Assembly (NCBI RefSeq): GCF_003349955.1
Contig: NZ_QLKQ01000005.1
Coordinates: 62,001 to 126,000 of the forward strand
Direction: 5' to 3'
From: Azospirillum brasilense
GTDB taxonomy: Bacteria > Pseudomonadota > Alphaproteobacteria > Azospirillales > Azospirillaceae
DNA: 64,000 bases
A program made the translations under genes and the position numbers. The notes below the pieces were generated by a model, which saw only the letters and a list, made by a program, of their open reading frames with translations, had not been told where the DNA came from and searched no databases. Position 1 is the stretch's first letter. Every line of letters begins with the position of its first letter. Below are positions 27,042 to 47,032 of the stretch, piece after piece.

Positions 27042-27563
27042 ATGGCCATTGCTGCTGAAAACATCGCGCTCGGCGTTTGCGACGTGACCTTTGCGACGCT
27101 CGACCTGGGCGCCACCAAGGGCGGCGTCGAGGTGGCGATCGAAACCTCGACCTACGAGGTGACCGCCGACCAGACCGGCGAGACGCCGATCAAGGAGGTC
27201 ATCACCGGCACCACGGTCACCGTCACGGTGCCGATGCTGGAAACCAACCTGACCAAGCTGCTCGACGTCATGCCGCAGGCCATCGGCATCGGCGCGCCGG
27301 GCTCGGAAGTCGGCATCGAGATCCGCTCGGGCGTCAACACCGACCTGCTCGAAGTCGCCGGCGAGCTGAAGCTGCACCCGACCGGCCTGCCGGCGTCCGA
27401 CACCGCCCAGGACTTCATCGCCTTCAAGGCGGCGCCGGTGCCCAACTTCACCTTCCGCTACGCGACCGGCGAGGAGCGTGTCTACGAGGTGACCTTCAAA
27501 TGTTACCCGGACACCACCGCCAACAACAAGATCGCGGCCTTCGGCAAGCCGACCGCGGCCTGA
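27042..27563 (+). CDS. Phage tail tube-like protein
   Basis: 173 residues. ATG 27042 is preferred over 27036 because aaggag lies 7 bp upstream. The protein is rich in Thr/Val beta-strand patterns (TTVTVTVPMLETNLTKLL, FTFRYATGEERVYEVTFKCY), as in siphophage tail tube subunits. It occupies the tail tube position of a lambda-like tail cluster, directly before the G/GT chaperone genes and tape measure. A hairpin follows it, as expected for a gene needing more transcript than those downstream. I assign it mainly on position and size. Confidence 0.65.
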   Translation: MAIAAENIALGVCDVTFATLDLGATKGGVEVAIETSTYEVTADQTGETPIKEVITGTTVTVTVPMLETNLTKLLDVMPQAIGIGAPGSEVGIEIRSGVNTDLLEVAGELKLHPTGLPASDTAQDFIAFKAAPVPNFTFRYATGEERVYEVTFKCYPDTTANNKIAAFGKPTAA

Positions 27564-27571
27564 CGATCCGG

Positions 27572-27643: not shown

Positions 27644-27988
27644 ATGACCGACATCCTCAACCTCGACGCCCTCAAGGTCACCCGTCTGGTCGTCCTCGAC
27701 GGCCGGGAGCGCACGCTGCGCTCGATGACCGTGGAGCAGTTCATCGAGGCCGACGATTTCGACGCCAGGCTCGCCGACGCCACGGGCAAGGAGAAGCTGA
27801 CGCTGCTGATCGGCAAGCTGCTGGAGTTCCTCGACGGCACCACCCACGCCGATCTGCTCAAGCTCGACATGACGCAGCTGATGGCGCTGCTGGCCTTCGC
27901 CCGCGGCTCCGACCTCTCCAAGCTGACCGACGCCGGCGAGACCCCGGACGGAACCGCGGTGGGAAACGCGGTGGCCGGGTCGAAGTAG
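27644..27988 (+). CDS. Tail assembly chaperone (lambda G-like)
   Basis: 114 residues, ATG preceded by aaaggaag. A small acidic helical protein, MTVEQFIEADDFDARLADAT then LTLLIGKLLEFLDG, in the slot between tail tube and tape measure. Near its 3' end is the heptamer GGGAAAC in the right phase for -1 slippage (see 27961-27967), so the gene also yields a longer G-T fusion. In lambda both products load onto the tape measure during tail assembly. Confidence 0.75.
   Translation: MTDILNLDALKVTRLVVLDGRERTLRSMTVEQFIEADDFDARLADATGKEKLTLLIGKLLEFLDGTTHADLLKLDMTQLMALLAFARGSDLSKLTDAGETPDGTAVGNAVAGSK
27961..27967 (+). other. Slippery heptamer for programmed -1 frameshift (G to GT)
   Basis: The sequence G_GGA_AAC is in the X_XXY_YYZ phase relative to the G reading frame (codon GGA starts at 27962). 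Lambda uses GGGAAAG at the same place in gene G. Slippage moves ribosomes from G into the -1 frame, which is open to the stop at 28296. Confidence 0.8.
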
Positions 27989-28296
27989 TCCAGCTCGATT
28001 TTGGATTCTACTTCGCTCGGATGATGCGCTTCTACGGCATGAGCTTCGCCGCCGTGCGCCGGATGCCCATCCGGGCCTTCTGGCTCCTGAACGACATGAT
28101 CGACCGGGTCCGCGCCGAGGAAGTTCTGGAGATCCTGCCGGCGCACAGCGTCGCGATGGGCGGCGAGCATGTGAAGCGGATCGTCAAAGGTCTGCACACC
28201 CGCCTCGGCCGCCCGCAGATTGTGGAGACCGTGACGATGTCCGACGAGGACATCAGGAAGGCCCGGCGCCTGTTCGGCGCGGGTGGATCTGTGTAA
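27967..28296 (+). CDS. T part of the G-T fusion chaperone (reached by -1 frameshift)
   Basis: After the slip, reading continues in the -1 frame for 109 codons to TAA at 28294-28296, giving a fusion of about 217 residues. The T part contains DFGFYFARMMRFYGMSFA and WLLNDMIDRVRAEEVLEILP, then a basic helical C-terminus. No good independent ribosome site precedes the in-frame ATGs at 28021 and 28024, which supports expression only as a fusion. The stop codon lies inside the palindrome that precedes the tape measure gene. Confidence 0.7.
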   Translation, partial: RGGRVEVVQLDFGFYFARMMRFYGMSFAAVRRMPIRAFWLLNDMIDRVRAEEVLEILPAHSVAMGGEHVKRIVKGLHTRLGRPQIVETVTMSDEDIRKARRLFGAGGSV

Positions 28297-28308
28297 GCAC
28301 GTACTTAC
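28293..28308. promoter_or_regulatory. Palindrome before the tape measure gene
   Basis: GTAAG-cacgta-CTTAC has the same half-sites as the GTAAGCGCTTAC palindromes before the tail tube and fibre genes, but with a 6-bp instead of a 2-bp spacer. It ends 14 bp before the tape measure ATG. Confidence 0.45.
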
Positions 28309-28322
28309 TGGAAGGATTCGTC

Positions 28323-30452
28323 ATGGCTTCGAACGCCACCACTCTGACCGTCGGGCTCGATTTCGACACCGCGTCTTTCACCAGGGACCTCAAGGCAGCG
28401 ACCGCGGCCATGACAACCTTCCAGAAGGCCGCCAAGCAAACGGACGGGCTGCTGTCCAGCCTCGCGCAGGGCTTCTCCAACGCCGGGGATATGGCCAACC
28501 GGATGGTCAAGGCCAGTGGGAGGATGACCAACCTGAAGCGCAAGCTGGCGGCCGTCACCGGTTCGGCCAATGAAATGAACAGGGCACTCCACGCCGGCGC
28601 GGCACGCGCTGGAAACTACGGCAGGGCCGTCGACGACCTGCACAGAGCGGCGCTGGGAACAGGGTTGGGCCTCGATGCGCTGGCGAAGTCGTACTCCACG
28701 GTCACTTCGGCCGCCAGCTCGGCCAGCATCGCCGCGGAGGACGTGCGCCGGGCGATCGAAGGCACGATCGGGACTGGCCAGCGCATGGGCGCCAGCAACG
28801 GGGACAAGCAGCGCGTCCTCAGCGCCATCCGTCAGGTGGTCATCAAAGACACGCCGCAAATGAAGACCGCGGCCAGTCCGATCGGCAAGGCCAACACCAG
28901 CACGTTCGGTGCGGCCCCGGCTCTCGCTTCGTCCGGCAAGGACAAGCCGGGCGCGGTCGGTGGCCAAGGGAATGCGGGCTCCGCCACCGCTGGGCAGCCC
29001 GCCGCGAACGGGTCGCCTCCGTTGGGTCAGGACGATCCCGCGTATCTTAACAGCCAGACCCTTCAGAACAAGCAGATGGTTGGGGTGCTGAACACCAATC
29101 AATGGCGCAATGACAAATACCAATTCCAAAAATCAAGCGTCGACCTTGAGATGGCTCGGCTCTACTACGAATACAGCCTGGACGCCGAGCAGCGCCTGCA
29201 ACTCATCCGCGCCGACGGGATCAAAAATTTCACGGAGAAATTTTCCGGCTTGATCACCGGTGTGCTGAGCGGACAAACGGGCATCGTCACCGGCGTGCGC
29301 TCGATGTTCGCAAGCATGGGCAAGTACATGCTTGATTTCTTCGCCAAGTGGGCTTCCCAGAAGCTCATGATGAAGGCGATCGACACCATCGGCGATCTTT
29401 TCGGCTTCGACTTCGGCGTCGGCTCCGGCGCAGGGAATGCCAAAGGCTCCGCGTCAGGTCCCGCCCCCGAGAGCGCCGGCTCCGGTGCATCGGGCGGCGT
29501 GCTCGGCCAAGCCAAGCCGGGTGGGGTGAGCGGACCGGCCAGCGCGGGCTCCGCCCCCGCTGGGCAGTCCGCCGCGAACGGCTCGTCTCCGTTGGGCAAG
29601 GACGATCCCGCGTATCTTCACGACCAGACGCTTCAAAACAAGCAGATGTTCGGTGTGTTGAACACCGATCAATGGCGCAATGACAAATACGAATTCCAGA
29701 AATCGGCCGTCGATCTTGAATTGAGCAAGCTCTACTACGATTACAGCCTGGACGCCGAGCAACGCCTGCAACTCCTTCGCGCCGAGGGAGCAAAGAGTTT
29801 CACCGAGCAATTCTCCGGCGTCATCACCGGCGTTCTGAGTGGGCAGATGACCCTCATCGAGGGCGCGCGCTCGATGTTCGCAAGCATGACCAAGTTTATG
29901 ATCGACTTCTTCGCCAAGTGGATTTCCCAGCAACTGCTGATGAAGGCGATCACCGGCATTGGAAAGATATTCGGCTTAGGTGGATCGCCCGATCCGTTGG
30001 CAAACTGGGAATCCCAGGCACAGTCCGCTGGCGATGCGGTGATGGCGGCGTACGCTCCAACGGCGCACAGCGGCGGCGTTCTCGGATCGTCGCGTCTCGC
30101 CACCACGCTGGTCAGCCCGTCCGTCTTCGACGGTGCGCCGAAGCTCCACTCCGGCGGCTTGCTGCGCGGCGAGGTGCCGATCATCGCCAAGCGTGGCGAG
30201 GGCGTCTTCACCCCGGAGCAGATGGACAACGCTGACAATCTTCTGACGTCAGCGCTTACTTCTGGAAACACATCACCATCCATTCATCAGGAGGTCACCG
30301 TGAACGTGAGCGGTGGGGCCGGCACGAGCGAACAGAACACCGATCTGGCCGACAAGATCGGCCGGCAGGTGAAGGCGGAACTGCGCGGTCTGATGACCGA
30401 GGAGATGCGCCAGCAAATGCGTCCCGGCGGTCTGCTGCGGGGAGGCTACTGA
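28323..30452 (+). CDS. Tail tape measure protein
   Basis: 709 residues, with ggaagg upstream. The N-terminus (LTVGLDFDTASFTRDLKAAT then AAMTTFQKAAKQ) and the C-terminal HSGGLLRGEVPIIAKRGEGV, followed by FTPEQMD, are typical of lambda H-like tape measures. The middle contains a 136-residue segment present twice (residues 218-353 and 408-543). At about 0.15 nm per helical residue it would specify a tail near 105 nm (inference). Parts are clearly less GC-rich than the surroundings: 29101-29160 has 28 G/C of 60. This points to a separate origin. Confidence 0.88.
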   Translation: MASNATTLTVGLDFDTASFTRDLKAATAAMTTFQKAAKQTDGLLSSLAQGFSNAGDMANRMVKASGRMTNLKRKLAAVTGSANEMNRALHAGAARAGNYGRAVDDLHRAALGTGLGLDALAKSYSTVTSAASSASIAAEDVRRAIEGTIGTGQRMGASNGDKQRVLSAIRQVVIKDTPQMKTAASPIGKANTSTFGAAPALASSGKDKPGAVGGQGNAGSATAGQPAANGSPPLGQDDPAYLNSQTLQNKQMVGVLNTNQWRNDKYQFQKSSVDLEMARLYYEYSLDAEQRLQLIRADGIKNFTEKFSGLITGVLSGQTGIVTGVRSMFASMGKYMLDFFAKWASQKLMMKAIDTIGDLFGFDFGVGSGAGNAKGSASGPAPESAGSGASGGVLGQAKPGGVSGPASAGSAPAGQSAANGSSPLGKDDPAYLHDQTLQNKQMFGVLNTDQWRNDKYEFQKSAVDLELSKLYYDYSLDAEQRLQLLRAEGAKSFTEQFSGVITGVLSGQMTLIEGARSMFASMTKFMIDFFAKWISQQLLMKAITGIGKIFGLGGSPDPLANWESQAQSAGDAVMAAYAPTAHSGGVLGSSRLATTLVSPSVFDGAPKLHSGGLLRGEVPIIAKRGEGVFTPEQMDNADNLLTSALTSGNTSPSIHQEVTVNVSGGAGTSEQNTDLADKIGRQVKAELRGLMTEEMRQQMRPGGLLRGGY
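28974..29383 (+). repeat. Tape measure internal duplication, copy 1
   Basis: A 410-bp segment encoding residues 218-353, repeated 570 bp downstream without indels. By eye about 104 of 136 residues match copy 2. The block NDKYxFQKSxVDLE and SLDAEQRLQL is the best conserved part. Confidence 0.85.
29544..29953 (+). repeat. Tape measure internal duplication, copy 2
   Basis: Second copy of the 410-bp segment, residues 408-543, at a constant 570-bp (190-codon) offset. A Gly/Ala/Ser/Pro-rich linker of about 54 residues separates the copies. Confidence 0.85.
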
Positions 30453-30453
30453 C

Positions 30454-30804
30454 ATGGCGTTCCCCATCTTCGCTCCGGCCATCCCGCCGAGCCCCGGCAC
30501 GGAAATCGCTCCGGAGGTCAGGGTGCTCGCCGCCGATTTCGGCGACGGTTACCGCCAGCGCGCCGCCGATGGCCTGAACAGCGTCCGCGACACCTTCGCC
30601 TTCGCCTGGGAGGCCCTGCCGGCCGCCGACGCCGACGCCATCGTCGCCTTCCTCAAGGCGCGCCTCGGCGCCGAGGCGTTCCTCTACACGCCGCCCGGCG
30701 AGAGCGCGCCGCGCAAGTTCACCTGCACGAAGTGGGCGCGCAAGCGCGTGCGCTTCTCCTACCACCAGATCACCGCCACCTTCGTCGAGGTTTTCGACCT
30801 ATGA
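30454..30804 (+). CDS. Minor tail protein (lambda M-like)
   Basis: 116 residues with ggagg 9 bp before the ATG. It resembles lambda gpM: VRVLAADFGDGYRQRAADGL matches the FGDGYxQRxxxGLN core, then FLYTPPGESAPRKFTCTKW. gpM acts at the tail tip during initiator assembly. It starts one base after the tape measure stop and overlaps the next gene by 4 bp. Confidence 0.85.
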   Translation: MAFPIFAPAIPPSPGTEIAPEVRVLAADFGDGYRQRAADGLNSVRDTFAFAWEALPAADADAIVAFLKARLGAEAFLYTPPGESAPRKFTCTKWARKRVRFSYHQITATFVEVFDL

Positions 30805-31541
30805 CCACGGCGACCACCCCCCGCAGCGCCGCCCAGGCGAAGATCGCCAGCGAGGCGCAGAAGGCGGCGACCAGCCCCTACGTCGTGCTCTACCAGCTCG
30901 ACGCCCGCGTCCTCGGCGGCGACGTCTACTGCTTCACGCAGTCGACCCGGGAATCGGCGCCGATCACCTACGGCGGCGTCGAGTACACCCCGATCGATCT
31001 GGAGGCCGACGGCTTCGAATGGACCGGCGCCGGCACGCTGCCGACGCCGCGCGTCCGCATCGCCAACGCCAACCGCGCGATGAGCGCGCTCGTCGGCACC
31101 TACGACGACCTGCTCGGCGCCACGCTGACGCGCATCCGCACCTTCCGGCGCTTTCTCGACGGCGAACCCGACGCCGATCCCGGCGCCCATTTCCCGCTCG
31201 ACATCTACCGCGTCGAGCGCAAGGTCGCGCTGACCAAGACGCACATCGAGTGGGAGCTGTCGGCGGCGATGGACCAGGAGGGCAAGATGCTCCCCGGCCG
31301 GCAGGTGCTGCGCGACGCCTGCACGCACACCTACCGGCGCTGGACCGGCGCCGGCTTCGACTATTCCCAGGCCACCTGCCCCTACACCGGCTCCGCCTGT
31401 TTCAAGGCCAGCGGCGATCCCACCGGCAACAGCGCCGAGGACGACTGCGGGCGCAAGGATTCCGACTGCAAGAAGCGCTTCGGCGAGTCCGCGGTGCTGC
31501 CCACGCGCGCCTTCCCCGGCGTCGCCCGAGTGAGGATCTGA
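30801..31541 (+). CDS. Tail tip protein (lambda L-like, Fe-S cysteines)
   Basis: 246 residues. The C-terminal quarter carries Cys174, Cys193, Cys216 and Cys223 in the arrangement of lambda gpL, whose C-terminal domain binds a [4Fe-4S] cluster; an extra Cys200 is present. The N-terminal part, PITYGGVEYTPIDLEADGFE, is the tip-ring-forming region. ATG overlaps the M-like gene (ATGA). It should form the baseplate-like hub together with the I-J fusion. Confidence 0.85.
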   Translation: MTTATTPRSAAQAKIASEAQKAATSPYVVLYQLDARVLGGDVYCFTQSTRESAPITYGGVEYTPIDLEADGFEWTGAGTLPTPRVRIANANRAMSALVGTYDDLLGATLTRIRTFRRFLDGEPDADPGAHFPLDIYRVERKVALTKTHIEWELSAAMDQEGKMLPGRQVLRDACTHTYRRWTGAGFDYSQATCPYTGSACFKASGDPTGNSAEDDCGRKDSDCKKRFGESAVLPTRAFPGVARVRI

Positions 31542-31545
31542 TCCC

Positions 31546-32250
31546 ATGTTCACGCCCGATGCCGTCGCGGCCATGCAGGCCCACGCCATCGCCGCCTTCC
31601 CCGAGGAAAGCTGCGGCATGGTGGTCGACAACGCTTACAAGCCGCTCGCCAACACGCACCCCGACCCGACCCGCCACTTCCACATCGCCGACGCCGATTA
31701 CCTGACCCACGCGGACGGGCTTCAGGCGGTGGTCCACTCCCACCCGATGGGGCCGCTGCACCCGTCGGGCGACGACATGCGCGGCCAACTGGCGACCGGC
31801 GTGCCGTGGGCGATCATCCCCACCGACGGCGAGGCCGCCGGCGCCCCGATCGTCTGGGGCGCCGGTGCGCCGGTGCCGCCGCTGATCGGCCGGCCCTTCG
31901 TGCACGGCGTCACCGACTGCTACGCGCTGTGCCGCGATTATTACCGCGACACCCTGGGCATCGCCGTGGCCGATCAGGCGCGCGACGACGAATGGTGGGA
32001 CCACGGCGAGAATCTCTACCTCGACGGCTTCCAGGAACGCGGCTTCGTCACCGTCGACCGCGCCATGATGCGCCCCGACGACGTGGTGCTGATGGCCATC
32101 CGCTCCAAGGTGCCCAACCACGCCGGCATCGTCATGCCGAACGGTCTGATTCTGCACCATCTGCAAAAGCGCCTGTCGCGCCGCGAGCCGCTCGGCCCAT
32201 GGATGCGCTTTGTGACGCATGTCCTTCGTCACGGGAGTGTCACGCCATGA
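31546..32250 (+). CDS. Tail assembly protein (lambda K-like: JAMM + NlpC/P60)
   Basis: 234 residues. The N-terminal JAMM/Mov34 metalloprotease has Glu20/21 and H64-x-H66-x7-S74-x2-D77 (HSHPMGPLHPSGDD). The C-terminal NlpC/P60 peptidase has catalytic Cys125 (GVTDCYALC) and His192 (VPNHAGIV). Lambda gpK has the same two domains and is thought to process or assist tip assembly and possibly cut peptidoglycan. All catalytic residues are intact, so the gene looks functional. Its stop overlaps the next ATG. Confidence 0.9.
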   Translation: MFTPDAVAAMQAHAIAAFPEESCGMVVDNAYKPLANTHPDPTRHFHIADADYLTHADGLQAVVHSHPMGPLHPSGDDMRGQLATGVPWAIIPTDGEAAGAPIVWGAGAPVPPLIGRPFVHGVTDCYALCRDYYRDTLGIAVADQARDDEWWDHGENLYLDGFQERGFVTVDRAMMRPDDVVLMAIRSKVPNHAGIVMPNGLILHHLQKRLSRREPLGPWMRFVTHVLRHGSVTP

Positions 32251-35200
32251 TGCGCCGCGTCCATCTCTACGGCGCGCTGCGCAAGGAGTTCGGCAAGGGC
32301 TTCACGCTCGACGTGGACTCGGTGGCCGAGGCCGCCCGCGCGCTCGAAGCCAACTTCCCCGGCCGCTTCTTCAAGGCCCTGCGCGACGGCGCGTTCAAGC
32401 TGGTGCGCGGCGACAAGCGCAGCGGCCTGGTGCTGAACGAGCAGGAGTTGACCTTCCGGCTCGGCAGCGGTGACCTGCACATCATCCCGGTGCCGAAGGG
32501 GGCGGCGGCCAGCCAGAAATCCAAGGGCGGCGCCAAGGCGGTGATCGGCGTCGCCATCATGGCGGTGGCGATCATCGCCGCCCCGGTGAGCGGCGGCGGG
32601 TCGATGGCCGCTTGGAGCACCGCACTGAGTCAGACGGCCTTCGCTGGTATCACCTACGGCAGCATCGCCATGTTCGGCCTGTCGCTGGCGCTGTCCGGCG
32701 TCTCGATGATGCTCAGCCCGCAGGCCAAAATGGGCGACCTGGAGAGCGTCGAGAACCGCAAGTCGTTCCTCTTCAACGGGCCGGTCAATTCCATCGAGCA
32801 GGGCGGCCCGGTGCCGCTCATTTACGGCCGCCTGCGCGTGGGCTCGACCGTCGTCTCCGCCGGCATGGCCCCGGAACAGATCATGTCCGGCGGTCCCACC
32901 GGTGGCAACGGGTCGGAGATGACCACGGTGGTGCTGGCCGGGTCGCTGTGGATCGTCACAACGACGTACCCTGACATCAGTCACTTCCATGTCGGCACGG
33001 TCCGGGGCGGCACGCTGCATCTGGCCGACCACACGCCGGTCGAGGCCGACAGCCTGCTCACCGTCGCCCAGGTGGCCGGCGGCCTGCGCTTCATCCCCGA
33101 CAGCGACGAATTCACCCGCGGCGTCTTCACGATCCAGGCGGCGCGCCGGGTCGGCAACGACTACAACTTCGTCGGCGCCCTCGTCGAGACCGAGGCCGGC
33201 GGCGAGGCCGACCCCTGGGGAGGCTCCGGCTTCAATCGCACCGTCGCCGATGGCGGCATCTCGGGTTCGGGCGGCGGCAAGGGCGGCGGCGGTTCCGGCG
33301 GCGCGCGTGAGGACGCCGACAGCCTGCAGTCGCGCTCGACCGCGCGCGTCGTCGACCTGATCGGCGAGGGCGAATTGGAGGAACTGCCCGTTGGCAACTC
33401 CAAGGGCGTCTACTTCGATGGAACGCCGCTCGAAAACGCCGACGGCACGCTGAATTTCAAGGGCGTGAACTGGGAAAGCCGGGTCGGTCTGCCGAGCCAG
33501 GACCACATCGCCGGCTTCGCCGCCGCCGAGAACGAGGTCGCCGTCTCCACCCGCGTGCGCGCCGACACGCCGGTGATCCGCACCATCACCGACACCGACG
33601 CGCTGCGCGTCACGCTGCGCTTCCCGATGATGACCCAGCAGGACGCCGACGACGGCGATCTGCACGGTTCGAAGGTGCAGATCGCCATCGACGTGCGGCC
33701 CTACGGCGGCGGCTGGCGCGAGACCGTCCTCGACACCATCGAGGGCAAGGCCACCGCCGCCTACGAGCGCGCCTACCGCATCGAGCTGCCGGAGGGCGGC
33801 GCGCCGTGGGACGTGCGGGTGCGCCGCCTCACCCCGGACAGCACCAGCGCCACCGTCCAGAACGAGAGCTGGTGGTCGAGCTACACGCAGATCGTCGACG
33901 GCAAATACAGCTACCCGGACAGCGCGCTGATCGCGCTGACGGTCGACAGCGAGCAGTTCGGCTCGTCGATCCCGGCGCGCTCCTACGACGTCAAGGGCCT
34001 GCGCGTCAGCGTGCCCGACATCTACGACCCGGAAAACCACAGCTACGCCAACGGCGGCATCTGGCAGGGCGGCTTCAAGACGGCGTGGACCGACAACCCG
34101 GCCTGGGTGCTCTACGACCTGATCACCAACACGCGCTACGGCCTGGGCCGGGTGATCGACGCCAGCCAGATCGACAAATGGAGCCTCTACCAGATCGCGC
34201 AATACTGCGATCAGCCGGTGCCCAACGGCGCCGGCGGCTGGGAGCCGCGCTTCACCTTCAACGGCATCATCCAGACCCGCGAGGATGCCTACAAGGTCAT
34301 CCAGTCGATCTGTTCGGCGTTCCGCGGCATGGCCTTCTGGGCGGCCGGCCAGGTCTTCGCCAGCGCCGACATGCCGGGCGACGACAGCGTGATCGTCGCG
34401 CCGGCCAACGTCCTCGACGGCGTCTTCTCCTACGCGGGAACGGCGCTGAAGGCGCGGCACACCGTCGCCAAGGTGGCGTGGAACGATCCCGCCGACGCCT
34501 ACCGCGGGGCGATCGAGGTCATCGAGAACACCCGGCTGATCGAGCGCCACGGCCACCGCGAGATCGAGGTGTCGGCGTTCGGCTGCACGAGCCGCAGCCA
34601 GGCCCGCCGTCTCGGCCTGTGGATTCTCGACAGCGAACAGCACGAGACCGAGACCGTCACCTACCGCTGCTCCTTCGACCACCTGGAGGTGACGCCGGGA
34701 CAGATCATCCAGGTCGCCGACCCGGCCTACGCGCTGGTGCGCCTGGGCGGCCGGGTGGCCTCGGCGACGGTGGGCCGGGTGACGCTCGACGCCCCGGTGA
34801 CGCTGGAGGCCGGACACGCCTACACGCTGTCCGTGACGCTCCCCGACGGCCGCGTCCTCGACCGCGCCGTGACCGGTGGGATCGGCGAGCATGGCGCGTT
34901 GACGCTGGTCGACCCGTTGCCGGTGGCTCCCGACGCCGGGGCGATGTGGTCGCTGTCGAGCGCCAGCCTGACCCCGCGCCGCTTCCGTGTCCGCAGCATC
35001 CGCGAGCTGGAACCCAACGTCTTCGAGGTGACGGCGCTCCTGCACGACCCGACCAAGTACGCGCGGGTCGAACAGGGTCTCAACCTGCCGGCACCGGCCT
35101 ACCAGGGCGGCGTCACCCCGCTGCCGGCGCCGGCCAACCTGCGGGCGGTGGAAAGCGTCTACTGGGTCAACGGGCTGCCGCAGGCCCGCGTCTCGGTGAG

Positions 35201-37637
35201 CTGGACGACGAGCAACCTGCCCGAGATCGCCGGCTACCGCGCCGACGTGATGACGCCGGGCGGCCAGTGGCAGGAATGGGCGACGACGCGCGTCGGCGGC
35301 TTCGACATCGAGCCGGCGGCCGAGGGCCGCTACACCATCCGCGTCACCACGCTCGGCCACGACAACCGCCGCGCAGGCGCCGAAATCGGCCTGATCGTGC
35401 GCGGCAAGGGAACGCCGCCCGGCCAGCCGACCGGGTTGGCGGCATCCGGCGGCATCCGCCAGATCGCCCTGCGCTGGTCCAACCCGACCGACACCGACCT
35501 CGCGCACATCGAGGTGTGGGAAAGCGCGACGAACGACCTGACGACCGCGGAGAAGATCGCCGAGGTCAAGGGCAGCAACTTCATCCGCGCCGGACTCCCC
35601 GGTCTCGCGGTGCGCTACTACTGGGTGCGCGCGGCCGATCTCGGCGGCAACATCGGCGACTTCAACTCCAACCTCGGCACCGCCGGCGAGGCCCGGCCAG
35701 CCAACGTGGAGGACATGGCGCAGGCGGTGTGGGACCGCGTCAAGGACGACATCGTCCACAACGTCCCGGACATCGACTTCTCCTTCCTCGACACCCATGT
35801 CGAACGCCTGATCCAGCGTCAGGACTTCGCCTTCCTCGACGCCCGCGTCGAGGCGGTGATGGCGCGATCGGGGTTCGACAACGCGCTGGCCGAGACGCTG
35901 GCCGAGTCGGTGCGCCTCGGCTACGAACGCTTCGAGGCGTTGCAGCAGACGCGCGGCGACAGCCGCCGCCGCTTCGCCGCCGTCGACCAGCGCATCACCC
36001 AGGAGGTTTCCGACCGGCAGGCGCTCGCCGAGACGGTCACCGAGATGGGCGCCGCCTGGGAGCACAACCGGGCCATCATCACCGACCGCCTCACCGCCCA
36101 GGCCGACGACCTCGGCGCGCTCGCCGAGGAGGTGACCCTGCTCGCCGCCAAGACCGGCGAGGACATCGCGGCGGCGGCCCTGACCGAATCCCGCGCCCGC
36201 ACCGACGGCGACACCGCACTGGCCGAAAAAATCAGCAGCCTGACCACAACGGTCGGCGACAACCGGGCGCTCGCCGAGGAGCGTTGGCGCACCCTTGCCG
36301 ACGCCGATTCCGCCGAGGCGGCCAGCCGCACCCTCCTGGAGGGCAAGGTGGACGGCAACTGGACGAGCTTCGTCGCCGAGCAGACGGCCCGCGCCGACGC
36401 CGAACGGACGCTCGCCGAGGACATCCGGACGCTGCGAAGCGATTTCGACGGCAACGTCGTGGCGATCGGGCGCGATCTGCAAACGCTTGCGCAGGCCGAC
36501 GAGGTGCAGGCCAAGGACATCACGACGCTGTTCGGCCATGTCGGCGACAACGCCGCCGCACTGGCCGAGGAGACGACGCTGCGAGTCAAGGAGGACAGCG
36601 CGCTGTCCCGGCGCGTCACCGAACAAAAGGCGCAGATCGACACCGATCTCGCGTCGCTGAACACCGAGATGCGCACCTGGGTCGACGAGAGCTCCGCCGT
36701 CGCCAACGAGTTGCGCGCGCTGACCTCGGAATTCGACGGCAACAAGGCGGCGGTGGCCGGGGAGATCAAGGCGGTTAGCGACAGCCTCTCGGCGACGGCC
36801 AGCGACGTCCGGGCGCTCGCCGCGCGGGTCGGCGACGCCGAGGCGGGCATCGCCAGCGAGAGCCGGGCGCGGGCCGATCTCGACCAGGCGTTGACCGAGA
36901 CGATCACCCAGCAGCGCTCGCAGATCGACAGCAACATCGCCGGCCTGGAAACCTCGCTCAAGACCTGGGTCACCGCCGAGTCCACGGTGGCCCGCAACGT
37001 CGCGACGCTGCAAACCACGGTCAACGACAACACCACCAAGATCAGCACACAGCAGAGCAGCATCAACGGCCTGCAGGGACGCTACTCGATCACCGTGGAT
37101 TCCAACGGCTACGTCTCGGGCATGGACCTGCTGTCGAACACCAACAACGGCGTGACGCGGTCCAGTTTGATCTTCCGTGTCGACGACTTCATGGTCACCA
37201 AAGCCGGCTACCCCGGCGTCACACCGTTTGTCATCACCCCCGTCGGCGGTGTCCAGAAGGTTGGCATCAACAGCGCGATCATCGGTGACGCGGTGATCGG
37301 GCGGGCGCACATCGGCGACCTGGTGGTCAACGGTCAGAAGATCGAGGACTTCGCTACCGGCAACATGAACGCCGCACGCGGAGCCAACGGCACCATCAAC
37401 GTGACGATGACCACCACGGGCAAGCGGGTCATGGTGTTCAAATGCACCTATCGGCGCATCGTCACTGGCTATGGAGGCGGCGAGCAAGGGCTTGAGCAGT
37501 ACAGCTACATCCCGAACGTTGGCATCGAGTTGGAACAGCCGGGACCGGGTACGCACACGTGGTCGGTAACCCAGCCGCCGAGTGAGATCGCCTGGGGCTT
37601 GTATGCCGTCGTCGCTGTAATCGAGTTGCGCAAGTAG
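32247..37637 (+). CDS. Fused tail proteins I and J (tip attachment protein)
   Basis: 1796 residues. Residues 1 to about 215 match lambda gpI, with two hydrophobic segments (about 92-115 and 130-155) and FNGPVNSIEQGGPVPLIYGR followed by LRVGSTVVSAGM. Then come about 130 unassigned residues and a Gly-rich linker (about 336-352, GGISGSGGGKGGGGSGG). From about 355 the protein matches gpJ (STARVVDLIGEGELEELPVG; LTPDSTSATVQNESWWSSYT). Fibronectin-III-like domains lie near 950-1150, a long coiled coil near 1190-1600, and a DUF1983-like end YSITVDSNGYVSGMDLLSN. In lambda, I and J are separate genes. J forms the central tip and binds the receptor. ATG overlaps the K-like stop. Confidence 0.88.
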   Translation: MMRRVHLYGALRKEFGKGFTLDVDSVAEAARALEANFPGRFFKALRDGAFKLVRGDKRSGLVLNEQELTFRLGSGDLHIIPVPKGAAASQKSKGGAKAVIGVAIMAVAIIAAPVSGGGSMAAWSTALSQTAFAGITYGSIAMFGLSLALSGVSMMLSPQAKMGDLESVENRKSFLFNGPVNSIEQGGPVPLIYGRLRVGSTVVSAGMAPEQIMSGGPTGGNGSEMTTVVLAGSLWIVTTTYPDISHFHVGTVRGGTLHLADHTPVEADSLLTVAQVAGGLRFIPDSDEFTRGVFTIQAARRVGNDYNFVGALVETEAGGEADPWGGSGFNRTVADGGISGSGGGKGGGGSGGAREDADSLQSRSTARVVDLIGEGELEELPVGNSKGVYFDGTPLENADGTLNFKGVNWESRVGLPSQDHIAGFAAAENEVAVSTRVRADTPVIRTITDTDALRVTLRFPMMTQQDADDGDLHGSKVQIAIDVRPYGGGWRETVLDTIEGKATAAYERAYRIELPEGGAPWDVRVRRLTPDSTSATVQNESWWSSYTQIVDGKYSYPDSALIALTVDSEQFGSSIPARSYDVKGLRVSVPDIYDPENHSYANGGIWQGGFKTAWTDNPAWVLYDLITNTRYGLGRVIDASQIDKWSLYQIAQYCDQPVPNGAGGWEPRFTFNGIIQTREDAYKVIQSICSAFRGMAFWAAGQVFASADMPGDDSVIVAPANVLDGVFSYAGTALKARHTVAKVAWNDPADAYRGAIEVIENTRLIERHGHREIEVSAFGCTSRSQARRLGLWILDSEQHETETVTYRCSFDHLEVTPGQIIQVADPAYALVRLGGRVASATVGRVTLDAPVTLEAGHAYTLSVTLPDGRVLDRAVTGGIGEHGALTLVDPLPVAPDAGAMWSLSSASLTPRRFRVRSIRELEPNVFEVTALLHDPTKYARVEQGLNLPAPAYQGGVTPLPAPANLRAVESVYWVNGLPQARVSVSWTTSNLPEIAGYRADVMTPGGQWQEWATTRVGGFDIEPAAEGRYTIRVTTLGHDNRRAGAEIGLIVRGKGTPPGQPTGLAASGGIRQIALRWSNPTDTDLAHIEVWESATNDLTTAEKIAEVKGSNFIRAGLPGLAVRYYWVRAADLGGNIGDFNSNLGTAGEARPANVEDMAQAVWDRVKDDIVHNVPDIDFSFLDTHVERLIQRQDFAFLDARVEAVMARSGFDNALAETLAESVRLGYERFEALQQTRGDSRRRFAAVDQRITQEVSDRQALAETVTEMGAAWEHNRAIITDRLTAQADDLGALAEEVTLLAAKTGEDIAAAALTESRARTDGDTALAEKISSLTTTVGDNRALAEERWRTLADADSAEAASRTLLEGKVDGNWTSFVAEQTARADAERTLAEDIRTLRSDFDGNVVAIGRDLQTLAQADEVQAKDITTLFGHVGDNAAALAEETTLRVKEDSALSRRVTEQKAQIDTDLASLNTEMRTWVDESSAVANELRALTSEFDGNKAAVAGEIKAVSDSLSATASDVRALAARVGDAEAGIASESRARADLDQALTETITQQRSQIDSNIAGLETSLKTWVTAESTVARNVATLQTTVNDNTTKISTQQSSINGLQGRYSITVDSNGYVSGMDLLSNTNNGVTRSSLIFRVDDFMVTKAGYPGVTPFVITPVGGVQKVGINSAIIGDAVIGRAHIGDLVVNGQKIEDFATGNMNAARGANGTINVTMTTTGKRVMVFKCTYRRIVTGYGGGEQGLEQYSYIPNVGIELEQPGPGTHTWSVTQPPSEIAWGLYAVVAVIELRK

Positions 37638-37652
37638 GAGGCGAAATCGGAC

Positions 37653-38117
37653 ATGAACAGCGCCGGCAATCCTGAAAATATGCTCTCCATGTTTGCCAAT
37701 CCGGAAAATGGAGACTTCCTGTTTTACGATGCGGACGGTCGGATCACCCAGATCGGCTGTGCGGCCCCTTTCGATCTCGCGAAACAAACGCCGCCGGTGG
37801 GTTGCAAACGGCTTCACACCACCGCCGCCCTGTGGCGCGACTATGTGGACCTGAGCGGCGATGCCCCGGTGGTGCGCGAACGCCCAGCCCTGCTTGGGTT
37901 CGACAAGACACGCATCCTCGCCGACGACACCGACACGGCAACGCTGCGCGGCCTGCCATCGCCCTGCACGGTGCTGGTCAACGGCGTCGCCCACACCATC
38001 GACGGCGGCGAGTTGGCGTTGTCCTGCCACCTGCCGATCCGCCTCACCGTCGTCATCGACGCGTTCCCCTATCTGCCCTTCCAGGAGGTCGTCACATGCG
38101 TCTCTCCATCCGCCTGA
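37653..38117 (+). CDS. Hypothetical tail-associated protein
   Basis: 154 residues, ATG preceded by taggagg. No recognised domain. The sequence has a short N-terminal segment (NPENMLSMFANPENGDFLFY) and a beta-rich C-terminal half including CTVLVNGVAHTIDGGELALS. It sits between the I-J fusion and the fibre gene, where siphophages commonly carry small tip or fibre-attachment proteins. Its end overlaps the next small gene by 22 bp. Confidence 0.6.
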   Translation: MNSAGNPENMLSMFANPENGDFLFYDADGRITQIGCAAPFDLAKQTPPVGCKRLHTTAALWRDYVDLSGDAPVVRERPALLGFDKTRILADDTDTATLRGLPSPCTVLVNGVAHTIDGGELALSCHLPIRLTVVIDAFPYLPFQEVVTCVSPSA

Positions 38118-38284
38118 GCGCCGAGCAGATCGCCGAGGAGCGCCGACGGCGCTACCTCGCCGCCTGGCCGATGCACGCCCAGCTCGAAGCCCAGCACGAT
38201 GCGGCCAACGGACGTCCCGAAAAGCTGGAGCGCATGACCACCGACTTCGCACGCATCAAGGCCGACCTGCCCTTCCCGGATTGA
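38096..38284 (+). CDS. Small phage tail-region protein
   Basis: 62 residues, ATG at 38096 with a strong aggaggt 6 bp upstream. An arginine-rich helix (LSAEQIAEERRRRYLAAWP) is followed by an acidic helix. Comparable short proteins precede tail fibre genes in many alphaproteobacterial prophages; function is unknown. It overlaps the preceding gene in another frame, which together with the ribosome site supports it being real. Confidence 0.6.
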   Translation: MRLSIRLSAEQIAEERRRRYLAAWPMHAQLEAQHDAANGRPEKLERMTTDFARIKADLPFPD

Positions 38285-38307
38285 AATCCGCTGGCTTCGA
38301 TGCTACA

Positions 38308-38319
38308 GTAAGCGCTTAC
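38308..38319. promoter_or_regulatory. Perfect palindrome upstream of the fibre gene
   Basis: GTAAGCGCTTAC lies in the 86-bp gap before the fibre gene. A possible promoter surrounds it: TTGAAA (38281-38286), 18 bp, TACAGT (38305-38310). TATACT at 38321-38326 is another -10 candidate. Near-copies occur at 26967, 28293 and 46595. Confidence 0.55.
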
Positions 38320-38370
38320 ATATACTGAGGCCGCACCCTATGCCGGCCCAACGGCGACGGAAAGACAGCA

Positions 38371-41300
38371 ATGCCACAGACTTGGTATCGTGACGGCTCC
38401 GTCACTCTGATCAACGGCTCCACGGCGGTGACCGGATTCGGTACGCTGTGGGCCTCGCAGGTGTTTCCGGGCGACGTCTTCTCGCCCGACGGCGACCGCT
38501 TCTACGAGGTGGCGGACGTCGCCTCGAACACCGCGCTGACCCTGCGCACGCCCTACACCGGCACGAGCCGGCCGCCAGTGGCCCAGGTCAACACGATCAC
38601 GCCGCACGTCGTCAGCACGACCACGGCGCAGACCGACGAGATCTCCATCAACGACTTCGTCTACCAGTTCACCAGCGACGCCTCGCCGACCGTGGCGGAG
38701 ATCTGCGCCGGCCTGGCCGCGCGCATCAACGCCTCGCCGACCTGCCCGATGACCGCCGTGGCGACGGACGGCACCGTCGTCCTGACCGCCAAGACGCCCG
38801 GCCAACCGCTCACCGTCATCGTCTCGGCCAATCTGACCAGCGGCCTGACCACCCCGGCCAGCGCCGGCTCCGGCTACATGGTGATCCGCAACTTCGCGGG
38901 CACCATGGCCGCCGATGTCGCCAACCGCATGGCCGATCTGGTCCGCAAATGGCAGCTGCGCGAGGACGAGTTCGTCGCCTGGATGGCCGGCGACCCGCGC
39001 GGCGGACCGAACGGCGACGGCAAGTATCCGCTGACCGACACGCAGGGCAACGTGCGCCTCGTCGAGACGCCGTCGGCGCTGCTGGAGATGATCGACGGCG
39101 GCCTGATGGACAATGTCCAGCTGGTGATCGACGCGATCGAGGACGACGTCGTGGCGGCCCAGTTGGCGGCGACCGAAGCGTCCGAAGCGGCGGTGGCCAC
39201 GGCGGCGGCGCGCAACGCCGCGCAGGCCAGCCAGGCGGCGGCCCTGGTCAGCGAAACCAACGCGAAAGCCAGCGAGACCGCGGCCAAGGCAAGCGAAGCG
39301 GCGGGAGCGGCGAGCGCCGGAATCGCATCGCAGTCGGCTCTCGCGACGGCCCGGGCCGAGACGTCGGCCCTGGCCGCGAAGACCGCGGCCGAAACGGCGA
39401 ACGCCGGTGCCCAAGCGGCGAAGACGGCGGCGGAGGGCGCGTCCGCCGCCGCCAAGGCCAGCGAAACCATGGCGAAGGCCAGCGAAGCGGCCGCCAAGAC
39501 CAGCGAGACCGGAGCCGCGGCGAGCGCCCAGACGGCGACGACCCGCGCCACGGCCAGCGCCACCTCGGCCTCCCAGGCCGCGAGCAGCGCGACCAGTGCC
39601 GCCGGTTCGGCGTCCGCCGCCGCGACCAGCGCCCAGACGGCGACGACCAAGGCGAGCGAGGCGGCGGCCAGCGCGGCGGCGGCCAAGACCAGCGAGACCA
39701 ACGCCAAGACCAGCGAGACCAACGCCGCCGGCTCCGCTTCGGCGGCGGCTGGATCGGCCTCCAACGCCGCGACCAGCGCTCAGGCGGCGGCCGGGGCGAT
39801 GACGGCGGCCGAGACGGCGAAGACCGGCGCCCAGGCGAGCGCGGCCACGGCCACGAACGCCGCCACCGCCGCGTCCGGTTCCGCCACCGCCGCGCAGTCC
39901 AGCGCGGGCGCCGCCAAGGCGTCGGAAACCGCGGCGGCCACCGCGGCCGCCCAGGGACAGGGCAGCGCTTCGGCATCGGCGGCATCGGCAACCCAGGCGG
40001 CGGCCTCGGCGACCAGCGCCGCGACCAAGGCCGGCGAATCCACGACCAGCGCCAACGCCGCCGCGGCCAGCGCCACCGCGGCCCAGAGCAGCGCCAACAC
40101 CGCCGCCACCCACCTGTCGGGCGTGCAGGCCAACGCCACCGCCGCGGCGAACGCCCGCACGGCGGCCGAGGGGGCGCGCGACCAGGCCGCGGCGAGCGCG
40201 GCGACCGCGGTCTCCAGCGCCCAGGCCGCCGACGCCAGCGCGCAATCCGCCTCGGCCGGCGCCACCAACGCCAACACCGCCGCCGCGGTGGCCGGCACCT
40301 CGGCGACCGACGCCGTCAACGCCAAGATCGACGCGGTGTCCGCGCGCGACATCGCGCAGCAGATGCGCGACCAGGCATCGGCGCAGCGCGAACTGGCCGC
40401 GTCCTGGGCGTCGAACGGCTTCAACGTGCCGGTGCAGTCCGGCGCCTACTCGGCGCTGCACTGGGCGTCGCTGGCCAAGCAGTATGCGGACACCGCCGGG
40501 ACCATCGTCGGCGGCTTCAGCTTCTCCGCCATCGGCGACGGCAACCAGCAGAAATTCACCGCCTCGATGCCCGGCGACACGATGCATTTCGTGCAGGGCT
40601 CGAACATCAACATCAATTACGACGCGGCGCTCAAGCGCCTGACCTTCTCGGCCACCTCCAAACCGGTGGACACCGAGCATGCGGGCCTCGCCGTGCGCGA
40701 CGACAACACGGCGGGCAAGACCTTCCTGTCGCTCGTCCCGGCCAGCATCGCCCACCAGTCGCTCGGTGGGGCCGGAGCCAACACGCACGCGCAGATCGAC
40801 GCCCACATCGCCGCCACCGGCAATCCGCATGGCACCAACTCGAACGACATCGAATACATCGACCCGGCGTACGGAACGGTTGGGCCGCTGTCCGACGTCA
40901 TCGCCGACCTTTACGCCACGAAGATTGACAAGGGAAACCCGGTCGTCCAAGGGACGATGACGCTGAGCGTTGATCCCAGCAGCGACATGAATGCCGCCAC
41001 GAAGCGGTATGTCGACCACCTGCCGTCCAAACGCAACGTCCGCTACGCCACGACCGGCGACCTTGGGCCGGTGACCGCGACCACGACGACGCTCACCGGA
41101 CCTTCCGCCAGCTACACCGCCACCGGAACGACGGCCAACGGTTCCGCGTCGGTGACGAACGTCGCCAACGCCAGCTCCAAGGTCAAGGTCGGGGCGACCG
41201 TCACCGGAACCGGCATCCCCGCATCCACGACGGTCACGGCGGTGAATGGCACGACGGTGACGCTGTCGGCCAACGCCGCGGCCGGCGGCACTCCGTCGCT

Positions 41301-44300
41301 GACATTCACCCAGAGCATCGGAGCGCTGGCGATCGATGGTGGGATCACCGCCCTGAACGACCGCGTTCTCGTCAAGGATCAGTCGATCGGAAGTCAGCGC
41401 GGCATCTATTATCTGTCCACAATTGGAACGTCGTCGGTGCCGTGGGTGCTGACGCGCTCCACCGATGCCGATTCCTGGACCAAACTGCTCGGCGCGCAGG
41501 TGCTCGTCGAGGCCGGGGCCACCCTGGCGGACACAGCGTGGATGATGCTGTCCGACAGCGGAGGCACGCTCGGCACCACGACGCAGGTTTGGCAGGCGTA
41601 CGCCTCGCCGAACGCGTACTCGCTCATCAACATGACGGCCAACGGGATTGTCGCGCGAGCGGCCAATGGCGGCTTCACCGTCCGCGCCATCACGGGGACG
41701 CCGAACGAAATCAGCGTGGCCGAAGGCGGCGGCGTCGCGGGCAACCCGACGATCAGCCTGCCCTCCGCGCTCGCGCTTGGCGGCAAGGCGGTGACGGTCG
41801 GCGACGCCAACTTCACCATCCAGGACACCGGCGACACCACCAAGCTGGTCAAGTTCGAACTCGGCGGCCTGACCACCGGAACGACGCGCACGCTGACGGT
41901 TCCCAACGCCTCGGGCACCCTGACGCTGGACGGCCACGGCCACACATGGAGTGACATCACCAGCGGCAAGCCGACGACGGCGGCGGGCTGGCTGACCGAC
42001 GTGCTTCTGACCGGCAACACCGCGCACCAGACCGGCACCTTCGACGCGATCCGCCTGTGGGACACCGACAGCACCCACGCGCTGCGGATCGGCAATGGCA
42101 CGGATCTCACGGCCGACCGCACGCTGACCATCGCCACGGGCGACGCCAACCGAACCCTGACCATCCCCGGCAACGCCACGGTCAGCGGCACCAACACCGG
42201 CGACCAGACGATCACCCTGTCCGGACCGATCACCGGCAGCGGCACCGGGATCATCGTCACCTCGATCCAACCCAACGTGGTCGGCGACAGCCACCTCCGC
42301 CAGGGCGCCGCGACCTCGGTGGTCGGGCGGGCCGCCAACAGCGCGGGCAACGTCGCCGACATCGCGGCGACCACCGACAACACCTTCCTGGCGCGGCGCG
42401 GCGGCACGCTCACATTCACCAGCCCGACCTGGAGCGACATCGCCAGCGCCAGCAAGCCCACCAGCCTGTCGGGGTACGGCATCACCGACGCTCAGCCGCT
42501 CAACAGCATGCTCACCACCTTGGCGGGCCTCGACGGCAACGCCGGCGTGCTGGTGCAGACGGCGGCGAACGCGGTGTCCAAGCGCGGCATCGGCACGGCC
42601 AACGCCAGCGACATCCTCGACCGCACGGCGGGCGACAGCCGCTACGCGCAGCTGACCGGCAACGTAACCTTCGGCGGAAACCTCTACGTCGGCAACGGAC
42701 ACCCCTCGGTGAACTTCCGGGAGACCGACGCCGCCACCGACACCAAGGCATGGACCCTGGACGTCGAGAACGGGCGCTTCCTTGGCGTGCTGGCAAACGA
42801 CAGCAACACGGCCTGGACGACCTGGCTGAACGTGCAGCGGTCGGGGATGACGGTGTCCAACATCGCCCTGGCCGGCAGCGCCCTGACCTTCAACGGCAAC
42901 AACATCCTGACCACGGCGACCGGCGCCCCGCTGTCCGGGGCGGCGTTCACCGGCAACGTCTCCCTGCGCACCGCCGGGGGCGGCAACCTCAAGGTGCTCG
43001 GCACCGGCAACGCGGGGGTGGAGCTCGGGCGCGACGACGGCGTCGCCAGCACGCCGTTCCTGTACTTCCATTCCGGGGCGACCTACACGACCTACGACGT
43101 CTCGCTGATGGCGTCGGGCGGCAACGGAACCAACGGGCAGGGCACGCTCAACATCCAATCGGCCCTGCTCCAACACAACGGTAGCAACGTCCTGACCGCC
43201 GCGCACTGGTCCACCCAGGCGACGCCGAACACGGCGATGCTGCGCGACGGAGCGACGAATGTGGCGGCGGGGGCCTATACGGCGACCGGCACCTACCCCG
43301 CGGTCTTCTTTCACGACACCGACGCCGCCGCCAACAGCAAGCGGTGGCGCCTGGCGGCGAACACCGCGCAGATGGACATCGCCATCGACTCCGACGACTT
43401 CTCGTCGACGGTCGGCGTGATGTCGTTCTACCGCAACACCACCACGCCGACCGGAATCAGCGCGTGGGCTCCAGTCACGGTCAACGCGAATGTGGCGGCC
43501 AACGGGGCGCATCTGCACCTGCAAACCGGCGGCGGCTCGCTGGGCCGCAAGTCGGTGACCCGCCACTACGGCACGTTCGCCGGAGGCACCGCCGACACCG
43601 GGCAGCGGGTGGTCGGGCGCACCGAGGCCGGTTTCAGCACCGCCAACTGGGGGACCGAGTATTACGCGATCTGCCTGAACTCGACGGCCAACGACGCGGC
43701 CTCCGACGCCAACATGACCGCCTACCTGACGCTGACCAAGGACACGGCGCAGTTCAAGGCGAAGACCGAGACCTACCTCGCCCAGCTGGGCACGACGGTC
43801 GGCAACGCCGTCGTCCACAATCAGGCGGTGTCCGGTTCGGGCGCCTCCAACACCGACTATCTGCGCACGCACATCCAGCGCTTCGCCGGCACCAACACCG
43901 CCTGGACTTCGGCGGGGTGGCGCATCCAGCGTCAAGTCGACCTGACCCCGCAGGGTTACATTCAATTCGGCGGCGAGGGCAACGACCACGGTGTCTACAT
44001 CGGCTCCGGCGCAGGAGCGGCGCACCGCCTGGCCATCCCGTCGTCGGGCAATGTGACCATCGACGGCAGCTCGGTCTACACCACGGCGAACCTGAACGGA
44101 ACGTGGCTGGGGCAGGATTTGCGCACCACCGCCGCGCCGACGTTCAACGGCGTCGCGTCCACGGGCTCCCTTCTCGCCCTGACCGCCGACGGCATCCGCC
44201 ACAAGCAAGGCAGCAGCTCCGCCGGGTACGGCATCATCCACCGCAACGACGGGGGCAACTACTACATCCTGCTGACCAACAGCAACGACGCCAACGGGAG

Positions 44301-46083: not shown

Positions 46084-46506
46084 ATGAAATACGTCCATTA
46101 CGACGAAAACAACGTGGTCACCGGCTATACCCAGTTCGTGGTCGGCTTCGCGCCGCCCACCGACGGCGCCTACATCGAAGTGGACGAGGCGGTCGAGGTC
46201 GGGATCGGCATGCTGATCGACCCCGTCACCGGCACGCTGTCGGCCAACCCGGAGCCCTATGTCCCGGTCGGCCCGGTCCCGGAAACGGTGTCGCCACTGC
46301 AAGCCCGCATGGCGCTGCTCGAAGCCGACCTGCTCGACGACGCCGAAGCCTTCGTGGCGACGCTGAGCAAGCCTGAACAACTCGCCTGGCAATATGCCAG
46401 CGAGGTCCGCCGCGACAACGCGATCATCGCCAAGGCGGCGGCGCATCTCGGCCTCGATGACGACCGGATCGACGCCTTGTTCCGGCGGGCGTCGAGCTTC
46501 GCCTGA
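46084..46506 (+). CDS. Fibre-associated small protein (possible fibre assembly factor)
   Basis: 140 residues, 12 bp behind the fibre stop. The N-terminal half is a small beta domain (MKYVHYDENNVVTGYTQFVV). The C-terminal half is helical: SPLQARMALLEADLLDDAEA, then QLAWQYASEVRRDN and a short LGLDDDRIDALFRRA helix. This C-terminal pattern recurs in proteins encoded directly after phage tail fibres, which in several phages are fibre chaperones. The role here is inferred from position. Confidence 0.7.
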   Translation: MKYVHYDENNVVTGYTQFVVGFAPPTDGAYIEVDEAVEVGIGMLIDPVTGTLSANPEPYVPVGPVPETVSPLQARMALLEADLLDDAEAFVATLSKPEQLAWQYASEVRRDNAIIAKAAAHLGLDDDRIDALFRRASSFA

Positions 46507-46816: not shown

Positions 46817-47032
46817 ATGTCCGACACCATCACCGCTCCGGCCACCACGCCGGCCGCCGCCCCGACCATCGCTCCGGCCACATCCGCTCCGGAATCCCGC
46901 CCGGCGACGCACGTCGCGCTTCCGGTCGAACTGGCCAACGGCATCCTCAACTATCTGGCCCAGCGCCCCTATGGCGAGGTGGCCGACCTGATCCGGGGCA
47001 TGGAAGCGACCAGCGTCGGCGTCGCCCCCTGA
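46817..47032 (+). CDS. Small hypothetical protein at the end of the tail module
   Basis: 71 residues with agaaaga before the ATG. The N-terminal 35 residues are Ala/Pro/Thr-rich and disordered. The C-terminal half is a compact helix pair, LPVELANGILNYLAQRPYGE then VADLIRGMEA. Short proteins with this C-terminal pattern are found near phage structural genes; function unknown. It has no hydrophobic segment long enough for a holin. Confidence 0.5.
   Translation: MSDTITAPATTPAAAPTIAPATSAPESRPATHVALPVELANGILNYLAQRPYGEVADLIRGMEATSVGVAP

Follow-up and report, generated by a model that had tools for sequence, protein, structure and literature searches.

We analyzed a 64,000-nucleotide stretch of DNA (hereafter the window, whose numbering is used throughout) from Azospirillum brasilense, which belongs to a genus of plant-associated nitrogen-fixing bacteria (assembly GCF_003349955.1, contig NZ_QLKQ01000005.1, positions 62,001 to 126,000). 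At 32247-37637, on the forward strand, the window translation gives a single stop-free frame of 1796 codons, which joins relatives of the lambda tail-tip proteins gpI and gpJ and is called I-J here. Its ATG start overlaps the stop codon of a K-like gene by 4 bases. The two genes and the parts of I-J are as follows (CDS, coding sequence; AF2 model confidence is given as pLDDT).

31546..32250, + strand: K-like protein with JAB and NlpC/P60 domains (Prok-JAB, NLPC_P60; catalytic positions conserved)
32247..37637, + strand: fused I-J tail-tip gene, 1796 residues (open frame; gpI and gpJ families; one CDS in strains Az39 and MTCC4035)
32247..32504, + strand: gpI ubiquitin-like domain, residues 1-86, ending at the invariant P81 and G85 (pLDDT ~80-95; conservation)
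32535..32885, + strand: gpI hydrophobic helices and plug segment, residues ~97-213 (phrog_32; lambda chains 8iyk_I and 9e7m_Ia)
32925..33212, + strand: accessory beta-rich domain, residues 227-322 (leave-one-out profiles; repeats on G131:C40; AF2 core blocks at pLDDT 69-86)
33252..33302, + strand: Gly-rich N-terminal leader of gpJ, residues 336-352, described earlier as a linker (similar leader on split gpJ)
33303..35126, + strand: gpJ hub part, residues 353-960, including FNIII-A_GpJ (428-551) and Phage-tail_3 (678-830) (families; 8xcg_J at Z 31.0)
35127..37634, + strand: gpJ central-fibre part (phrog_31 match)

The I-J frame and its relatives

A preliminary description of this DNA had proposed one frame with a gpI-like N-terminus and a gpJ-like remainder, adjacent to a K-like JAMM/NlpC protein, and profile searches recovered both. 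The 203-position profile phrog_32 matched residues 1-213 (E = 1.3e-45) and phrog_31 matched residues 338-1727 (E = 8e-286), while the K-like gene carries Prok-JAB and NLPC_P60. The solved lambda chains 8iyk_I and 8iyk_J aligned to residues 2-212 and 344-967, respectively. Both hub domains were detected (FNIII-A_GpJ, E = 5.6e-44; Phage-tail_3, E = 2.6e-19), and the NCBIfam model lambda_TipJ scored 464.8 bits against a cut-off of 1950, which was not reached; judging from these matches, the gpJ part is a relative of gpJ and not lambda's own J. About 125 residues separate the gpI and gpJ matches, with GGISGSGGGKGGGGSGG at the place reported earlier.

The preliminary description had pointed to a sequencing error as the finding that would undo the fusion. 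In the complete genomes of A. argentinense Az39 (NZ_CP007796.1) and MTCC4035 (NZ_CP032325.1), which share their gene order, I-J is annotated as one CDS of 1796 and 1795 residues, respectively. Viral contig L124 holds a frame of identical length (1796 residues) with a DNA identity of ~95% to the window, and a shorter relative in Azospirillum sp. B510 is one CDS of 1545 residues. These CDSs and the L124 frame rule out chance or a sequencing error as the source of the fused frame; it is carried by independent assemblies, including those of more distant Azospirillum species, and the notion that a sequencing or assembly fault deleted a stop between I and J has a negligible probability.

The junction evolves as coding sequence under purifying selection. 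When the window is compared to Az39, nonsynonymous (dN) and synonymous (dS) divergence amount to 0.000 and 0.145 for residues 190-226, 0.033 and 0.128 for 226-323, 0.032 and 0.280 for 323-353, and 0.011 and 0.094 for 353-900; for the entire gene in MTCC4035 versus Az39, dN is 0.007 and dS 0.074. We also looked within residues 271-356 for an ATG, GTG or TTG preceded by a Shine-Dalgarno-like sequence and found none, so that a separate start for gpJ is unlikely, and an internal gpJ start was rejected on these grounds. The C-terminal end differs in its behavior, residues 1651-1796 being highly variable among strains (dN 0.454, dS 0.991 versus Az39).

To see how widespread the fusion is, we took the 80 best related loci from each of two collections (160 in total); these are not a random sample, and the viral ones are those among the matches listed. 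The fusion is indeed present in other tail clusters, mostly of Azospirillum: 10 of these loci are fused, 143 have separate I and J frames, and 7 lack I. Eight of the fused loci come from Azospirillum records (L044-L050, L052). The remaining two are L124, which is near-identical to the window, and L165, a contig of metagenomic origin that has one identical copy (L212) and six other relatives in which the matched I is split from J. Within the window's genus, the fused frame occurs in 8 of 45 genomes, at 10 places; I and J are split on G009:C8, with a gpI frame of 367 residues, and G043 has gpI alone (251 residues). In A. canadense, two prophage-like regions on G009:C10 (L005, L014, L237, L238) carry fused genes with the same gpJ hub sequence and differ in the head family nearby, which is lambda-type in one and HK97-type in the other. 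Annotation exists for 37 of the 40 best rows in the phage collection, and at least two features lie under the match in every one of these. A candidate fusion in Klebsiella phage 48ST307, with a single listed feature, was discarded, as its I is merely unannotated and J begins later.

A gpJ tree was calculated from 45 rows chosen among 158; the gpJ comparison left out four short J sequences (L114, L117, L120, L121). The eight Azospirillum-type fused rows, including the window and L124, form one clade with support of 98/83, and L165 falls outside it; the p-AU value for a single fused clade is borderline, at 0.047. Since the clade is supported and L165 is placed elsewhere, the fusion probably arose once in the Azospirillum lineage and perhaps, given the borderline value, a second time elsewhere.

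The stretch between plug and hub

The Gly-rich stretch had been taken for a linker created by the fusion. Leaders such as GAGGGGKGGGGS, however, are also found ahead of the hub domain when gpJ is split: a Gly-rich run is present in 125 of 139 split gpJ leaders, and 72 of the 139 are at least one-quarter glycine. The stretch is thus the usual N-terminal leader, inherited from gpJ, and a fusion-specific linker is ruled out. In the other fused relatives, merely short spacers lead from gpI to this leader.

The ~130 residues described earlier as unmatched do lie between the gpI and gpJ matches, but they hold an accessory domain with relatives. Residues ~227-322 match the C-terminal extension of split gpI in L026 and L169, and the middle of fused L049 and L050. 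Leave-one-out profiles gave E values of 3.4e-10 for L169, 3.7e-6 for L050, 2.6e-5 for L026, 1e-3 for the window and 4.9e-3 for L049, the best background value being 0.19. In seven of the ten fused loci (L044-L048, L052, L165), just 43-62 residues separate the I and J matches, so the domain is missing there. Among 385 genomes of the class, the domain profile found one other genome (G131:C40), where a frame of 1093 residues (L227) carries five tandem copies beside beta-propeller repeats; a weaker match lies in a 2353-residue frame of the window's own genome. Because it is missing in seven fused loci and repeated in L227, residues ~227-322 seem to form a dispensable, beta-rich domain whose relatives also occur as repeats within a large bacterial protein, and it may bind surfaces. 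Pfam gave the middle domain no name. Foldseek searches of its model against the PDB and BFVD returned no match at E ≤ 0.001, a result of little weight at a mean pLDDT of 61.8; the five phage hits obtained by tblastn with the middle region covered only query residues up to 37, i.e. the gpI end, and a scan of the collections with the middle-domain alignment yielded no lead.

Tail-tip architecture and processing by K

The AF2 model of residues 1-960 has a mean pLDDT of 78.2 and a predicted template modelling score (pTM) of 0.71. It resembles lambda gpJ (8xcg_J: Z 31.0, root-mean-square deviation (rmsd) 10.0 over 586 residues; 8k35_A: Z 23.8, rmsd 3.3 over 580 residues). The model also aligned to the Sf11 hub (Z 25.4, rmsd 6.7; cf. 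PMC12724387) and, over residues 104-944, to the single-chain T5 hub pb3 (7zhj, 9ioz; Z 23-24, best 24.1). Searched with the gpI sequence profile, Chi-type and Sf11 hubs in the PDB yielded no relative. By sequence, the J part was closest in the PDB to the F2-pyocin entry 25vf (E = 3.5e-163), in which three chains of a gpI relative stand next to a J-like fibre.

The preliminary description held that gpI is not found in the mature tail, and reasoned that a fusion would force it into the particle in fixed ratio or require cleavage. The first statement is outdated: mass spectrometry and cryo-EM place gpI in the mature lambda virion, as a trimer beside the gpJ trimer, in a 3:3 ratio (PMC10721106, PMC11101478), and thus rule out its absence from virions. 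The fusion therefore imposes no new ratio. T1 has the same insertion protein as lambda gpI (PMC11945409), and in T5 pb3 the plug lies within the hub chain (PMC10721106). Since gpI already stands 3:3 with gpJ in lambda, and in view of T1, T5 and 25vf, the contact that the fusion turns covalent is one that exists already at 1:1.

In lambda (8iyk, 8k35, 8xcg), both families are likewise preceded by L and K homologues, but I and J are two chains, without a beta domain between them. F2-pyocin (25vf), like other F-type tailocins, has a lambda-like tail, with a gpI relative in the solved entry, as here, whereas its I and J are separate chains and the Azospirillum cluster is known from genes alone. 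T5 pb3 carries plug and hub on one chain, as does I-J; its plug, however, is inserted inside the hub and a gpL part is included, while the I-J plug is N-terminal and gpL is separate (PMC10721106). The closest precedent is a 2006 study (PMC1779556), which reports TAPI-TAPJ fusions in some prophages, with TAPI typically beside a JAB/NlpC TAPK gene; both the direct gpI-gpJ fusion and the JAB/NlpC neighbor are shared with I-J. Neither this type of fusion nor the idea of K processing is thus new. What is added here is a clade, the intervening beta domain, a setting without head genes and a corrected mechanism. PMC1779556 also describes the mature tail as lacking gpI, a view that was later overturned.

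In the proposal of the same study, TAPI is cleaved by the JAB domain of TAPK just behind the final glycine of its ubiquitin-like domain, a site that maps to G85 here, and not to ~350. Residues 1-80 gave a confident alpha/beta model. P81 and G85 are present in all 151 aligned gpI sequences with letters at these positions. In the aligned K sequences, the conserved JAB residues are E21 (140/141) and H64, H66 and D77 (139/139 each), and the conserved NlpC residues C125 (139/139) and H192 (142/142). Both sides of the cleavage proposal are, by these alignments, intact in the window, and the conserved K and I features occur together in 137 of 144 loci in which K and I could be aligned (six of the other seven reflect gaps in the K alignment; ten further loci have no aligned K).

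K may thus trim only the N-terminal ubiquitin-like domain, after G85, a cut that would leave plug and hub connected and that supplements the tethered fusion instead of competing with it. Besides the published proposal and the near-invariance of both partners, the gpI N-terminal domain is not seen before residue 101 or 135 in lambda, or before 92 in T1; this could nevertheless be mere flexibility, and gpK was not detected in the lambda virion (PMC10721106). No locus has lost both the JAB and the ubiquitin-like features. We consider trimming at G85 quite possible, at somewhat below even odds; the NlpC/P60 domain of K may instead act on peptidoglycan.

The preliminary description placed the cut near residue 350, so that K would release separate gpI and gpJ. 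K does lie directly upstream with its JAB and NlpC catalytic positions intact, and the Gly-rich leader is probably flexible. Against this, split gpJ, which needs no cut, starts with the same kind of leader, the spacer ahead of it is unconserved among fused relatives, and the published site (PMC1779556) follows the ubiquitin-like domain. Removal of residues 1-350, for which we found no support, would also take away the conserved plug, and we judge a cut at this point very improbable.

Two other arrangements were observed at this end of the tail tip. The families phrog_28576 and phrog_35166 match the K-like protein (31546-32250) with their first part and gpI (32247-32885) with their second, which suggests K-I fusions in other phages. 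At L110:3854-4922 (Myxococcus eversor) and L158:3851-4922 (a related viral contig), gpI ends, upstream of gpJ, in ~130 residues that, read in part by eye, look HINT/intein-like (PT-HINT, E = 0.054 in L158; intein model, E = 0.0017 and 0.0022 for L110/L158).

A tail cluster without head genes

I-J lies within a cluster with lambda-like gene order (probable tube, two small genes, tape measure, M, L, K, I-J, fibre), in which no tail terminator was identified. Its other genes are as follows.

27042..27563, + strand: probable tail tube protein, 173 residues (phrog_2175, 'protein with Ig domain', E = 3.8e-44; phrog_885, major tail protein, E = 8e-4)
27644..27988, + strand: small protein in tail assembly chaperone position (phrog_893, unknown function; syntenic with Az39)
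28021..28296, + strand: small protein in tail assembly chaperone position (phrog_1131, unknown function; syntenic with Az39)
28323..30452, + strand: tape measure protein, 709 residues (TMP_3, below cut-off; PHROG tape-measure families; annotated in Az39)
30454..30804, + strand: gpM-like minor tail protein (Phage_min_tail, E = 3.8e-22)
30801..31541, + strand: gpL-like minor tail protein (Phage_tail_L, E = 8.1e-44; start as in Az39)
37659..38117, + strand: small conserved protein x1, after I-J (Az39 comparison)
38096..38284, + strand: small conserved protein x2 (Az39 comparison)
38371..46071, + strand: giant tail fibre, 2566 residues (Gp34_trimer; tail-fibre PHROGs)
46117..46506, + strand: small protein x3, in fibre chaperone position (129-residue Az39 counterpart, 58% identity)
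46841..47032, + strand: small protein x4, final gene of the cluster (63-residue Az39 counterpart)

The window aligns to plasmid p3 of Az39 over almost its full length, mainly excepting the fibre region. There, thirteen tail genes stand between genes for a GlxA-family regulator and an ABC transporter on one side and for AMP-binding and SDR proteins on the other, so that the flanking genes are metabolic. For the cluster and its flanks, the annotation lists no gene for a head, an integrase or lysis, in a gene table that is incomplete (side gaps <200 bases). The window's contig (G000:C127) gave no match to PF05065, PF04860, PF05136, PF05876 or phrog_2, the only head families searched, while a lambda-type terminase and portal lie on a different contig of this genome. 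The same five families were not found near the fused loci on G011:C36, G020:C3, G022:C69 and G032:C2, nor near the one on G032:C1, where the nearest match is 125 kb off, nor by the one on G021:C112, whose contig ends soon upstream. The absence of head genes is not general, however. Three fused loci have them ~10-13 kb away, one on G041:C45 and two on G009:C10 (one lambda-type, one HK97-type), so the fused tip also occurs in prophage-like regions.

On this gene content, positions 27042-47032 are a tail-only cluster and a candidate F-type tailocin; we use no stronger term because no lysis gene was found and the tail is known from genes alone. In the B510 relative, a lysozyme gene follows the fibre. 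Rhizoviticin from Allorhizobium vitis (PMC10811719), reported as the first alphaproteobacterial F-type tailocin, likewise has, by its description, a flexible-tail locus without head genes, which differs in that genes of the early phage region, lysis genes and what is left of an integrase are still present. We found no paper on an Azospirillum tailocin by title or abstract, which is no proof of absence in print.

The missing head, integrase and lysis genes would also fit a decaying prophage remnant that makes no particle and in which the fusion is neutral, as would the strong strain variation of the fibre and last genes and dN/dS values of 0.48-0.70 (window versus Az39) for the tube, one small gene, the tape measure and the fibre. 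All thirteen genes, however, have counterparts of full or near-full length in the window and in Az39, M, L, K and I-J show dN/dS values of 0.04-0.36, and the fusion stands near head genes at three other Azospirillum loci. We therefore hold such decay to be unlikely.

The I-J end (37194-37634), the fibre (38461-46071) and the next gene (46117-46506) are strongly divergent from Az39, L, M and K being nearly identical; this is as expected if receptor specificity is exchanged. Opposite I-J and the fibre, two long antisense open frames (32229-38252, 2007 codons, and 38338-46446, 2702 codons, both on the minus strand) gave no Pfam match at E 0.001 and are probably a by-product of codon usage.

Taken together, we favor, at a probability of roughly 0.8, a genuine, inherited fusion of a gpI plug to a gpJ hub and central fibre, with the plug tethered, in a tail cluster that is most likely tailocin-like. 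Three I-J chains would assemble at the tail tip, each bearing its own plug, so that the 3:3 arrangement that lambda achieves by binding would become covalent, a parallel to T5 pb3. The hydrophobic helices and plug would close the tube beneath the tape measure protein, and both would move out once receptor binding opens the hub; the beta domain would be a dispensable surface domain between the two. K may trim the ubiquitin-like domain after G85, the plug remaining joined. The window's fused tip would, most likely, sit in a domesticated, tailocin-like particle.

Several points weigh against this reading. The Pfam model Lambda_tail_I matched at E = 3.5e-4 with 21.4 bits, just below its cut-off of 23.8 bits. 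The chain was modelled as a monomer with the plug segment at low confidence (pLDDT <50 for gpI residues 110-186), and docking of each plug in cis is only inferred. Residues 100-190 diverge faster from Az39 (dN 0.151, dS 0.267), which may reflect recombination. The particle is unseen, no lysis gene was found in the cluster, and the latter could be a decaying prophage.

More tentatively, and with rather less than an even chance of being right in full, we propose that A. argentinense, including Az39, carries a domesticated F-type tailocin in which plug, adhesin-like surface domain and hub/receptor fibre are one covalent chain, the particle opening through movement of the tethered plug, with none set free, and that this chain, of lambda-type ancestry, converges on the single-chain hub of T5.

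With no head genes found around it, the cluster is a candidate F-type tailocin of Azospirillum, which may produce particles that kill bacteria. I-J is also a natural construct for the 2006 proposal of K processing, as any cut would visibly alter its 1796-residue chain. Should the chain remain intact, it would show that a tip of the lambda type functions while plug and hub are tethered, and this would constrain models in which gpI leaves the tip and inserts into the membrane.

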